Assembly: GCF_000768065.1 (NCBI RefSeq) | Contig: NZ_JRKM01000001.1 | Coordinates: forward strand, 1,674,001 to 1,738,000 | DNA: 64,000 nt | Direction of reading: 5' to 3' | Origin: Aquabacterium sp. NJ1 | GTDB lineage: Bacteria; Pseudomonadota; Gammaproteobacteria; Burkholderiales; Burkholderiaceae_C | Part shown: positions 2,412-55,162 of the stretch, piece by piece | Position numbering within the stretch: position 1 is the first letter of the stretch | Layout of the letters: each line of letters starts with the position of its first letter | Position numbers and translations under genes: made by a program | The notes under the pieces: model-generated | What the model was told of the DNA's origin: nothing | The model's input: the letters and a program-made list of their open reading frames with translations, nothing else | Database searches by the model: none

Positions 2412-4006
2412 GATGTGTGCTCCTGCTTCGCACCAGGCAGCATGCGTGCCGGGAAGGGGTTGAAGTAGCCAGGCGCTTTCGGGATCACACCGTCCAGGCC
2501 CTTGCCGCCGGTGAGCGTGCGCGAGATGTCTGCGAAAGTGCCTTGGGCAATGGCGGCAGGCAAGCCGTCTTGTTCGATCTGGCCAAGCAGGGCCTCGGTT
2601 TCGGCCAGAACCTGCTGGGCGCGTTGTTCGATGCGGCCACCGGGCGTGAACTGGATCTCTTCATGAAGATCGCGCAGGTTGCCAAACACATAGCGTGCGT
2701 TCTGAATGGCCAGGAAGCGATCCTGCATCAAGGGGGTGTGGATGGCCTCGGTCATCATGCCCAGCAGGTGGATGTTCTGCTGTGTGAGCACGCTGGCAAC
2801 GTTGAACAAGGCGTCCTGGATGTGGCCTTTGAAGATGTTGCCCGTCATGTGCTTGGTGGGCGGCATGTACTTCAGGCAGGCCTCGGGGAAGACCTGGCGC
2901 ACCAGTTGCGCGTGAGCCAGCTCCCACAGGAAGCCGTTTTCCAGCGTGGGGTTGATCTCGAAGGCGTGGCCCAGGCCCATCTGGTCGGGCTGCAGGCCGC
3001 TGAGGTAGGCGAACTGCTCGTTGATCAGCTGCGAGGCCAGCACGGTGTGCGCGGCATCGTAGGCATCGGCGGTGGTGAGGTAGTTGTCTTCGCCGGTGTT
3101 GATGATGATGCCGGCATACGCGTTGACCATGCGCGAGAAGAACTGGTCCACGAAGGTGCGCTGCATGTTGATGTCGCGGAAGATGATGCCGTACATCGAG
3201 TCGTTGAGCATCATGTCCAGGCGCTCCATGGCGCCCATGGCCGCGATCTCGGGCATGCACAGGCCCGAGCAGTAATTGGTCAGGCGGATGTAGCGGCCGA
3301 TTTTTTGCCCGACCTCGTCCAGCGCCGCGCGCATGAGCCGGAAGTTTTCTTGCGTGGCGTAGGTGCCGCCAAAGCCTTCGGTGGTGGCGCCATAGGGCAC
3401 GTAGTCCAGCAGGCTCTGGCCGGTGGAACGGATCACGGCGATGACGTCGGCGCCTTGCTCGGCTGCGGCGCGGGCCTGCACGATGTCCTCGTGGATATTG
3501 CCCGTGGCCACGATGAGGTAGAGCCAGGGGGCGCGGGCTTCGCCGCAGCGGGCGATGGCGGCGTCGCGTGTAGCGCGGTTGGCGGCGATGCGCTCGCAGG
3601 TGCGGGCAGCCAGTTCATTGGCGGTGCGGCGTGCGGTGGCCTCATTGGCACGACTGGCGCTGCTGGAATGGCTGGAGCTGGTCAATGGGCTTTGCAGGCT
3701 AAGCTGACCGGCAGCCACGGCCTGGGCCACTTGCTGGATGCTCAGGCCGTGCTCGGCCATGGCGGCGGCCACGGGCAAGGCCGCACCCTGCTGCAGCAGG
3801 CCTTGCGCTTGCAAGTGGCTCACCAGCCGGTTGGGCAGCGGCACCTGGTTCTCGTCGACGCCGTCCACGCCCATGAGGCGCAGGGTGGCACGCTCCACCG
3901 AGGTGGTGGTGAAGCGCTGCATGTCATCGTAGACCTGGTGCGCAATGCGGCGCGCCATGTTGCGAGCCCGATCAATCTGGGCCTGGTCCAGCGTGAGGTG
4001 GCTCAT
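2408..4006 (-). CDS. kamD: Lysine 5,6-aminomutase alpha subunit
   Basis: 532 residues. It is the large, TIM-barrel catalytic subunit of D-lysine/L-beta-lysine 5,6-aminomutase and partners KamE. Recognisable family segments include LDQAQIDRARNMARRIA at the N-terminus, VDENQVPLPNRLV, the active-site stretch DYVPYGATTEGFGGTYATQE, and NYCSGLCMPEIAAMGAMERL. Residues about 105-140 form a Ser/Ala-rich insertion. The ATG at 4006 is preferred over a GTG at 4021 because AGGAGG sits directly before it. That ATG overlaps the stop of the preceding P-loop gene (ATGA), and the gene's own end overlaps kamE in the same way, so three genes are coupled in series. Confidence 0.96.
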   Translation of the reverse strand: MSHLTLDQAQIDRARNMARRIAHQVYDDMQRFTTTSVERATLRLMGVDGVDENQVPLPNRLVSHLQAQGLLQQGAALPVAAAMAEHGLSIQQVAQAVAAGQLSLQSPLTSSSHSSSASRANEATARRTANELAARTCERIAANRATRDAAIARCGEARAPWLYLIVATGNIHEDIVQARAAAEQGADVIAVIRSTGQSLLDYVPYGATTEGFGGTYATQENFRLMRAALDEVGQKIGRYIRLTNYCSGLCMPEIAAMGAMERLDMMLNDSMYGIIFRDINMQRTFVDQFFSRMVNAYAGIIINTGEDNYLTTADAYDAAHTVLASQLINEQFAYLSGLQPDQMGLGHAFEINPTLENGFLWELAHAQLVRQVFPEACLKYMPPTKHMTGNIFKGHIQDALFNVASVLTQQNIHLLGMMTEAIHTPLMQDRFLAIQNARYVFGNLRDLHEEIQFTPGGRIEQRAQQVLAETEALLGQIEQDGLPAAIAQGTFADISRTLTGGKGLDGVIPKAPGYFNPFPARMLPGAKQEHTS

Positions 4007-53452: not shown

Positions 53453-54478
53453 TTGGCCAACGACGCAGCCACGACTGGGCTCGCCACGCGCAAGCTCACT
53501 GTGCTGGGCGCGGGGGCCTGGGGCACGGCCCTGGCGATCAGCGCGGCACGCCACAACCCGCAGGTGATGCTGTGGGCACGGGACGCCGCGCAGGTCGAAG
53601 GCATGCGCTCAAGCCGCTGCAACGCGCGCTACCTGCCCGAGGCGAGCTTTCCTGAGGCCCTGCAACTGAGCCACGACCTCGATGAGGCCGTGGCGCACGC
53701 GCGCGCCGATGGCGGGCTGGTCATCATCGGCACCCCCATGGCCGCTTTGGGCAACATGCTGCAGAGCCTGCCCGATGACGTGGCCACGCTGTGGTTGTGC
53801 AAGGGCTTTGAAAAAGGCACGGGCCGGCTGGGGCATGAAATCGCCCAGGCCCTGCGGCCGCATGCGCGCAGCGGCGTGCTGTCGGGGCCGAGCTTTGCGC
53901 ATGAAGTGGCATTGGGCCAGCCCACCGCCCTGGTGGCGGCGAGCACCGACATCGCCCTGGCCGAACAGGCCGTGGCGGCCTTCCACAGCGACAGCCTGCG
54001 CGTCTACACCTCCACCGACCCGATTGGTGTCGAAGTGGGTGGCGCCGTCAAGAACGTGCTGGCCATTGCCACCGGGATTGCCGATGGCATGGAGCTGGGG
54101 TTGAACGCCCGCGCCGCGCTGATCACGCGTGGTCTGGCCGAAATGACTCGACTGGGCGTGGCCCTGGGCGCCCGCGCCGACACCTTCATGGGTTTGTCGG
54201 GCCTGGGTGACCTGGTGTTGACGGCCACGGGCAACCTGTCGCGCAACCGCACGGTGGGCCTGCAACTGGCTTCGGGCAAGACGCTGCAGCAGATCCTGCA
54301 TGACCTGGGGCACGTGGCCGAAGGTGTCTACAGCGCCGCCACCGTGTGGCAACGCGCGCAGACGCTGGGGGTGGCGATGCCCATCACCGAGGCGGTGGTT
54401 GCCGTGCTGGATGGGCGTTTGACACCGGCTGCAGCCGTGGGCGCCTTGATGCGGCGCGAAGCCAAAGCCGAGGGTTGA
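53453..54478 (+). CDS. gpsA: Glycerol-3-phosphate dehydrogenase [NAD(P)+]
   Basis: 341 residues. It makes sn-glycerol 3-phosphate for phospholipids. The Rossmann loop is [41 protein letters not shown], the catalytic [20 protein letters not shown] and [23 protein letters not shown] follow. The only start that retains the N-terminus is a TTG at 53453, two bases after the secB stop, with no ribosome site of its own, so translation is likely coupled to secB. Convergent with trmL, across a palindromic element. Confidence 0.97.
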
Positions 54479-54499
54479 GCCCAAACCGCAGCGTCTCCA

Positions 54500-54670
54500 G
54501 CCAGGGGCGCTGGGCGGTCAACGCAGCGAGGTAAAGGAGGAGGGGCCGGCGCAGCCGGACACGGGGGAGAGAGCCCGGACATCAAGAGTCCTGAGGACTG
54601 TTGATGCCTGGCGAGCGCGAAGGGCTCTGCCCCTGAGCACGAGCGGAGTTGACCGCCCAGTGCCCCTGGC
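54500..54670. repeat. 171-bp nested palindromic element between gpsA and trmL
   Basis: The outer arms (54500-54522 and 54648-54670, left arm GCCAGGGGCGCTGGGCGGTC plus AAC) pair over 23 bases with one mismatch that would be a G.U pair. Inside are three further elements: hairpin CCGGC-GCA-GCCGG (54546-54558); a long hairpin CATCAA-G-AGTCC-TGA-GGACT-G-TTGATG (54580-54606) that extends as CCGG/CTGG; and AGAGCCC (54570-54576) paired with GGGCTCT (54622-54628). No open frame of note and no terminator T tract is present. It looks like a structured RNA or a non-autonomous palindromic repeat placed at a convergent gene junction. I do not recognise a named family. Confidence 0.72.
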
Positions 54671-54691
54671 TCGCTCAGATGCCAACCAGCC

Positions 54692-55162
54692 TCAAGCCCC
54701 GCCCGCGTAGCCGTTCTGCCGCCAGGCCTCGAACACCGCCACCGCCACCGCGTTGCTGAGGTTCAGGCTGCGCTGCTCTGGCCGCATCGGCAGGCGCACA
54801 CGCTGCGCCGTGTCGAAGGTTTCACGCAAAGCCGGGTCCAGACCGCGGGTCTCGCAGCCGAACACGAACCAGTCACCCGGCTGCCATTGCACCTCGCTGA
54901 AGGGCCGGCTGCCGCGTGTCGTGAACGCGAACATGCGCGATCGGTCTGGCTGCATGGCCTCGATGAAGGCGTTCCAACTGGCGTGGCGGCGCACCGCGGC
55001 GTACTCGTGGTAATCGAGCCCGGCGCGGCGCAGCAGCTTGTCGTCCATGGAGAAACCCAGGGGCTCGATCAGGTGCAGCTCGCAGCCGGTGTTGGCCGCC
55101 AGGCGGATCACGTTGCCCGTGTTGGGCGGAATCTCAGGTTCAACCAGGACGATGCGGAACAT
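54692..55162 (-). CDS. trmL: tRNA (cytidine/uridine-34-2'-O)-methyltransferase
   Basis: 156 residues, a minimal SPOUT enzyme that methylates the wobble base of tRNA-Leu. It begins MFRIVLVEPEIPPNTGNVIRLAANTG, followed by LHLIEPLGFSMDDKLLRRAGLDYHEY. The deep-knot motifs are FVFGCETRGLDP and VRLPMRPEQRSLNLSNAVAVAVFEAWRQ. The family-standard length and lack of N-terminal RNA-binding domain support TrmL over other SPOUT enzymes. No clear ribosome site was seen close to the ATG. Confidence 0.96.
   Translation of the reverse strand: MFRIVLVEPEIPPNTGNVIRLAANTGCELHLIEPLGFSMDDKLLRRAGLDYHEYAAVRRHASWNAFIEAMQPDRSRMFAFTTRGSRPFSEVQWQPGDWFVFGCETRGLDPALRETFDTAQRVRLPMRPEQRSLNLSNAVAVAVFEAWRQNGYAGGA

Follow-up and report, generated by a model that had tools for sequence, protein, structure and literature searches.

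The 171-base palindromic stretch at 54500-54670 of the window, the 64,000-nucleotide piece of the Aquabacterium sp. NJ1 genome analysed here, is a chimera in which one copy of a dispersed hairpin repeat (family 1) holds a repeat of a second family (family 2) nested inside it. Family 1 is apparently an undescribed hairpin family that is widespread in Burkholderiales. Its arms differ by locus yet stay paired, a sign that a folded single strand matters. At a probability of about 0.55, we read family 1 as a dispersed hairpin doublet that is non-autonomous and REPIN-like, and that is recognised and kept in the form of one folded strand of fixed polarity.

Results

Architecture of the window element

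The element sits in the gap between convergent gpsA (ORF 53453-54478) and trmL (ORF 54692-55162), the gene names being those of the original prediction, which was made from the sequence alone. The elaborate fold proposed for this gap is genuine. The RNA fold of 54480-54690 reaches -122.9 kcal/mol, against -90.6 ± 5.0 for dinucleotide shuffles (z -6.53), with 0 of 200 shuffles as low. The predicted small GC hairpin is present at 54543-54561, and the outer arms of 23 nt, expected to match at 22 bases, form 22 Watson-Crick pairs and one G.T wobble (54500-54522/54648-54670). A repeat search extends the arm pairing to 54499-54527/54643-54671 (29 nt, 90% complementary). The inner hairpin of at least 11 bp at 54580-54606 is likewise found, with 11 pairs, one G.G mismatch and the loop TGA; the repeat search places it at 54575-54592/54594-54611. 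The description as a single 171-bp element does not stand, and short forms, long forms and a standalone module instead resolve it into a family-1 hairpin holding a family-2 module:

54500-54522, plus strand: 5′ outer arm, 23 nt, locus-specific in sequence, complementary to 54648-54670 (direct reading, repeat search, copy alignment)
54523-54542, plus strand: conserved 5′ core of family 1, GCAGCGAGGTAAAGGAGGAG (alignments A1 and A2)
54543-54561, plus strand: apical GC hairpin of family 1, variable yet paired across the family (fold and covariation)
54562-54568, plus strand: first part of the 3′ core, CGGGGGA, broken after its last base by the nested module (short versus long forms)
54569-54637, plus strand: nested 69-bp family-2 module, GAGCCCGGACA - hairpin - TGCCTGGCGA - hairpin (absent from 55 short forms, at the same site in 11 long forms)
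54580-54606, plus strand: long inner hairpin of family 2, 11 pairs, loop TGA (direct reading, repeat search, standalone module copies)
54638-54647, plus strand: rest of the conserved 3′ core, CACGAGCGGA (copy alignments, mutual information, pair tallies)
54648-54670, plus strand: 3′ outer arm, 23 nt, complementary to 54500-54522 (direct reading, repeat search, copy alignment)

Within this core, C54640 pairs with G54530, the G-C variant of pair 31-78 of alignment A1. The core also contains AAAGGAGG, which, from the 16S end, we take to be a candidate Shine-Dalgarno mimic.

An intrinsic terminator is ruled out for the window element by the absence of a T tract, a point on which our reading of the sequence agrees with the earlier one. 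Chance palindromy, under which the original prediction expected neither further copies nor covariation, is ruled out by the fold against shuffles together with covariation over 55 copies. The proposed lack of coding capacity is likely: no ORF of at least 100 aa covers the element, but two of the six frames are open throughout its 57 codons. Such frames can arise in GC-rich DNA, and a protein-coding reading is unlikely. As anticipated for an element of no known family, Rfam 15 gave no match at the gathering threshold and none to E 10 across 54300-54900; five loci with short forms were also without an Rfam 15 match.

Two nested repeat families

Family 1 is a hairpin of about 100 bp with arms of about 23 bp, a conserved purine-rich core and an apical hairpin. 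The 55 short-form copies run in the order 5′ arm (about 23 nt), GCAGCGAAGTAAAGGAGGAG, variable apical hairpin, CGGGGGACATGAGCGGA, 3′ arm. Eleven copies, including that of the window, are long forms: each is about 69 bases longer, and the addition always falls between GGGGGA and C(A)TGAGCG. The family-2 module is also found alone in other genera, and its exact pattern occurs in 17 of 100 family genomes. When the window element was used as a DNA query, many matches spanned only about bases 8-79, and in G003 the query stretch from 149 onward joins directly in two places. At one doublet locus, with flanks matched by eye, both elements are short in G000, element A is long in G028 and element B is long in G005; the module has therefore been gained or lost more than once there.

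Where the module stands alone at L084-L090 (G052), L092-L094 and L096, it starts TGAGCCCGGACA, and the TGA in this motif may be a gene's stop codon. At L125, L161, L167, L173, L182, L184, L197 and L226 the outer family takes a variant form, with an apical part of about 45 nt (GGCCGGATC...GAACCGGCC) in place of the short hairpin.

Arm pairing on one strand

Pairing of the arms is strongly maintained across loci. In the 55 copies, 96.2% of structure cells are paired, against 70.2% after column shuffling and 33-42% in slid controls, the latter flattering the structure because it was derived from the same 55 copies. Both sides have changed in 32 of 37 pairs, compared with 23.9 ± 1.5 in shuffles. 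The covariation that had been proposed as a check is strong across copies at different loci and at other orthologous loci.

Non-Watson-Crick pairs are distributed unevenly. On the core-bearing strand, the first 20 arm pairs of 257 distinct copies comprise 4522 Watson-Crick, 450 G.T, 27 A.C and 141 other pairs, all copies having been found by core likeness and arm pairing and accepted with at least 13 of 20 arm pairs Watson-Crick, a selection that favours well-kept copies. Among 101 copies with clearly different arms, the corresponding counts are 1782, 186, 8 and 44. Since copies and register were picked on Watson-Crick pairs only, G.T and A.C are treated alike, and the complementary composition of the arms argues for parity of the two by chance. 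The apical hairpin contains 61 G.T and 6 A.C pairs, with 114 other. The ratio of G.T to A.C is 23:4 in G397 and 18:1 in the other family of the order. Sorted by their lie relative to flanking genes, 40 sense copies give 81:3, 36 antisense copies 57:2 and 24 copies in convergent gaps 39:2. A process acting at the level of the duplex gives no reason for an excess of G.T, and the pairing is therefore kept on one strand.

Covariation within the core

When every pair of core columns in the 55 copies is ranked by mutual information, 31-78, 39-72, 25-84, 38-73 and 24-85 come out highest, all of them nested and antiparallel. Pair tallies cover the 242 copies with fewer than 60 nt between core halves (15 of the 257, with at least 60 nt, were left out); for pattern-found copies, the fixed pattern positions carry no evidence, and positions 31, 39, 72 and 78 were free between two letters. 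Pair 31-78 is AT in 203 copies and GC in 34 (other, 5), and pair 28-81 is CG in 222 and TA in 17 (other, 3). The purine-purine pair 39-72 is AG in 186 copies and GA in 49, the rest being AA (5), GG (1) and CG (1). The tandem 29-30/79-80 reads GA/GA in 223, GA/TC in 13, GG/CC in 2 and otherwise in 4, and 15 of the 19 copies that depart from GA/GA are fully Watson-Crick. Traced over 11 species at a single orthologous site, the swap at 39-72 takes three changes on the tree and 2-3 in bootstrap trees, with only one change forced by the well-supported branches alone.

Copies on Variovorax plasmids (L275-L277) have the variant GCGAAATAAAGG / ACATTCGC, with Watson-Crick pairs replacing the tandem G.A. 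Several copies in G397 (L326-L334) have a reduced core, GGAAGTAAAGGAGGAG / CGGGGGACATG, suggesting by its sequence which part of the core may be irreducible.

Distribution

Further copies, which the original prediction proposed to seek in this genome and its relatives, are found in many genera. Besides arm-to-arm matches, a DNA search identified three places in the element's own genome, with matches in 25 of 100 genomes, the own included. The covariance model R1, which describes the short form, matches 22 of 42 genus genomes. In the own genome it finds five places; among these, the copy in the window (54532-54568, E 0.001) scores weakest, as its nested insert would cause. Larger genome samples were scanned with stricter filters. 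R1 matched 95 of 200 sampled family genomes and 73 of 141 genera, with at most 20 candidates per genome scored, and the number of copies differs between genomes. The order sample gave 5 of 150 genomes, two from the own family and three from one genus of another family, and the class sample gave 3 of 229, of which two belong to the own family; the third, G397, comes from a further family and has 13 matches.

The exact core pattern is present in at least 119 stretches in named genomes. Among the 80 matches listed, most are Burkholderiales (Rubrivivax, Hydrogenophaga, Rhodoferax, Aquabacterium, Ideonella, Methylibium, Variovorax, Paucibacter, Caldimonas, Roseateles and others), some are named to class or phylum alone, and two are MAGs called Lysobacterales and Gammaproteobacteria. 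Carriage as phage or plasmid cargo was rejected, with 0 matches to the exact core pattern in viral contigs and the short form in four plasmid records (three Variovorax, one Burkholderia anthina). The copy on the B. anthina plasmid, which is of conjugative type, lies within a catechol meta-cleavage operon (L241, about 3001-3056 plus arms); the counterpart operon on an Achromobacter pestifer plasmid is without the element. A literature search that included the core sequence itself, and mostly covered papers outside subscription, found no description of the family. A search of PMC3733652 for six taxon names gave no hit.

Orthologous loci and gene context

The gpsA-trmL junction was read at 30 loci, out of 41 gpsA matches. 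G003 has a short form there with similar arms, in the orientation opposite to the window's, and G028 retains a remnant consisting of the left arm and CTCCGCTCATG only. Covariation had also been expected at this junction, where two full copies and one remnant among 30 are too few for a test. In two close relatives, G005 and G002 (L037, L038), the junction holds another palindromic sequence instead, about 600 bp in length and containing stretches such as TTCATGTTGGCGGTCCCGC / GCGGGACCGCCAACATGAA. The remaining 25 junctions are short (7-55 bp) and without the element.

Eleven species share a doublet between the permease and ATPase genes of an ABC operon, the genes being named from their translations. 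Core identity is 0.94 in element B and 0.89 in element A, the latter lowered by two of the 11 A elements, which are long forms with a misplaced 3′ core cut. Third codon positions reach 0.75, first and second positions 0.96, and the arms 0.62-0.73; if wobbles are included, 21-23 of the 23 arm pairs persist. The antisense member has four G.T pairs to one A.C, the sense member 24 to two. Conservation of the core at one orthologous locus across 11 species looks like in-place constraint rather than transposition alone.

A second orthologous locus has the element in four species. The arms are alike in G000 and G003 and quite different in G002 and G005, and they are complementary within each of the four. 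G019 and G008 share both flanks and are without the element; G006, G018 and G036 are also without it, beside a different upstream gene. The C-terminus of the downstream gene product suggests yidC. The element is adjoined by a separate hairpin, AAAAAA...TTTT, which resembles a terminator.

Gene context was taken from GC-frame heuristic gene calls for 121 units, after setting aside 51 that lay at the end of a locus and 12 that were distant from genes. The 58 units between two called genes lie in codirectional (26 and 18) or convergent (14) gaps and never in divergent ones, against 58 divergent among 278 background gaps. All 58 are downstream of at least one called gene, at a median of 58 nt from the stop codon (72 gene ends). 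None of the 70 units away from a locus end is centred within a called gene. Of 11 codirectional singlets, 8 lie in the sense direction.

Doublets, spacers and insertion ends

In the 188 elements of 119 stretches with the core pattern, 63 of the 67 pairs less than 400 bp apart are head-to-head (minus then plus) and 4 are not. The same order is seen in pairs of two other lineages (order sample and G397). The doublet spacer has a median of 49 bp (60 spacers of 30-130 bp). Promoter-like signal in the 60 spacers is at the shuffled level (6.43 versus 6.43), and divergent promoters in the spacer were rejected on this basis. Nor are the spacer ends clearly complementary in 61 doublets (3.85 versus 3.68 ± 0.15). 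Spacers of genus doublets (L012, L021, L025, L078) hold more hairpins, among them GTTGATTGCGGCAAACGCCGCAATCAAC in L021 and CCTTCGCTTCGCGAAGG in L025.

The target-site duplication suggested for the flanks was not found. The two 21-nt flanks of the window element share nothing beyond 4-mers, and in 59 doublets the signal is at control level (3.81 versus 3.77 ± 0.11). No clean empty/filled pair fixes the insertion ends at gpsA-trmL, in the B. anthina versus A. pestifer operon or at the yidC-like locus, where the sites are too rearranged or diverged. An origin of the arms by copying from the target of insertion is not supported: a consensus runs through the arms, with GGGTG near the middle, and by eye the arms are absent from the empty sites of G019, although these sites have diverged.

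Discussion

Relation to known repeat systems

REPINs, as described in PMC3116915 and PMC2817692, are small extragenic palindromes that pair up as inverted doublets, are separated by short spacers and show compensatory changes; the former paper gives a size of about 20-60 bp for REPs. Family 1 has these traits of the REPINs and REP doublets of Pseudomonas fluorescens SBW25 and the BIMEs of E. coli: it is extragenic, forms inverted doublets with short spacers and shows compensatory changes. Unlike a REP, however, its unit is about 100 bp long, and it is the outer arms that vary and the non-canonical core between them that is conserved. A variable arm forms the hairpin foot, and the GTAG tag is not in the consensus, arising in some copies by variation (columns 24-27). 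GGAG just 5′ of the apical hairpin, present in nearly all copies, bears a faint likeness to the REP tag. The family-1 doublet also differs from a REPIN folded as one long hairpin in the ends of its spacers, which are not clearly complementary.

RAYT-mobilised REPs differ further in their link to a transposase. Y1_Tnp is present in 72 of 95 element-bearing and 74 of 105 other genomes (p 0.43), and is missing from 9 of 34 genomes with at least 10 element matches. The 23 Y1 loci of the genus, with about 1.5 kb on each side, contain no element; the matches there are isolated and degenerate, and they involve just short motifs of the core or the module. Contig C1 of G056, a genome without an element match, has 20 Y1 transposase matches (20 of 22 candidates scored), several in two pieces. 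Family 1 is set apart from RAYT-mobilised REPs because it fails on size, tag and a linked RAYT. It is not a member of that group, and it works like a REPIN.

Other dispersed repeats share parts of this architecture. ERIC or IRU elements are enterobacterial imperfect palindromes of 127 bp, intergenic, some with an internal insertion at a fixed site. Compared by description only, family 1 resembles them as an intergenic palindrome of about 100-130 bp with a fixed-site insertion. Rapid arm turnover with wobble on one strand, and head-to-head doublets, are to our knowledge not ERIC features. The BOX elements of pneumococcus are modular, dispersed, structured repeats with optional internal modules; family 1 is modular with optional modules too, but the host phylum differs, and this comparison is again by description only. 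Covarying stems and conserved internal loops are as in the structured RNA families of Rfam, yet neither the window element nor the five loci with short forms match any of them.

Alternative explanations

Several explanations would account for parts of these observations. Intergenic hairpins, inverted doublets, short spacers and compensatory changes resemble the REPINs of PMC3116915, and GGAG recalls the REP tag, so that a true REP or REPIN moved by a RAYT (Y1) transposase might be considered; the longer unit, a consensus without GTAG, and the missing Y1_Tnp association, including at the 23 genus loci, make it very unlikely. Hairpin-templated (quasipalindrome) correction during replication, keeping the arms of an inert repeat complementary without selection, would explain concerted arm change at orthologous sites. 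It leaves unexplained why G.T exceeds A.C on one strand, why A.G is exchanged for G.A and GA/GA for GA/TC, and why the core is better conserved than third codon positions, and is highly improbable. Long terminal inverted repeats and the absence of a long ORF would suit a MITE moved by a DDE transposase through those repeats. In a MITE, however, the termini are conserved, whereas here they vary by locus around a conserved centre, and the 59 doublets show no target duplication (3.81 versus 3.77 ± 0.11); such an origin is barely credible.

A weightier contender, though still an unlikely one, is a structured RNA of host mRNAs, acting as an exonuclease barrier or as a processing or protein-binding site, with selection on the transcript keeping the pairing. 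Non-canonical covariation as in RNA internal loops would follow, and so would G.T (as G.U) at 450 against 27 A.C. All 58 placed units lie downstream of a gene (median 58 nt from the stop codon), 8 of 11 codirectional singlets are sense, and the core is constrained inside an operon in 11 species. Wobbles there are carried by the sense member (24:2) rather than the antisense (4:1), which leans to RNA. Against this, 36 antisense members keep the asymmetry on their own strand (57:2), where an operon mRNA would carry A.C; in the 11-species operon the conservation of the antisense member falls little short of that of the sense member (0.89 and 0.94); and 60 spacers show no promoter-like excess. A G.T share of about 9% with near absence of A.C fits RNA at least as well as single-stranded DNA, and together with the in-place constraint on the core it leans to RNA. 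Single-stranded DNA is slightly preferred because antisense copies bear the same signature and the spacer is without promoter-like signal. Among the three readings offered originally (non-coding RNA, non-autonomous palindromic mobile element, DNA-structuring repeat), the mobile element is the best supported, and a non-coding RNA is less likely.

Proposed mechanism and implications

With family 1 taken as a REPIN-like doublet, the window copy would be a singlet of a doublet-forming family with a second repeat nested in it. An enzyme acting in trans may move the doublet through a folded single-stranded intermediate, and after insertion the stable hairpin may be tolerated or used in transcript 3′ ends. 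We tentatively suggest that family 1 represents a new class of dispersed element, in which a folded single strand with a non-canonical core (purine-purine and tandem G.A) is selected and head-to-head doublets are spread by an enzyme other than RAYT/Y1, and which extends beyond its main family to one sampled genus elsewhere in the order and to one sampled genome from a further family within the class.

If this is true, it adds a large hairpin-doublet family to those of bacterial genomes. The prevalence of G.T over A.C, combined with swaps of A.G to G.A, is a clear signature of one folded strand under selection. Since the best known hairpin doublets are tied to RAYTs and family 1 is without such a link, our analysis poses a testable question: what recognises the core, and whether it does so as DNA or as RNA.
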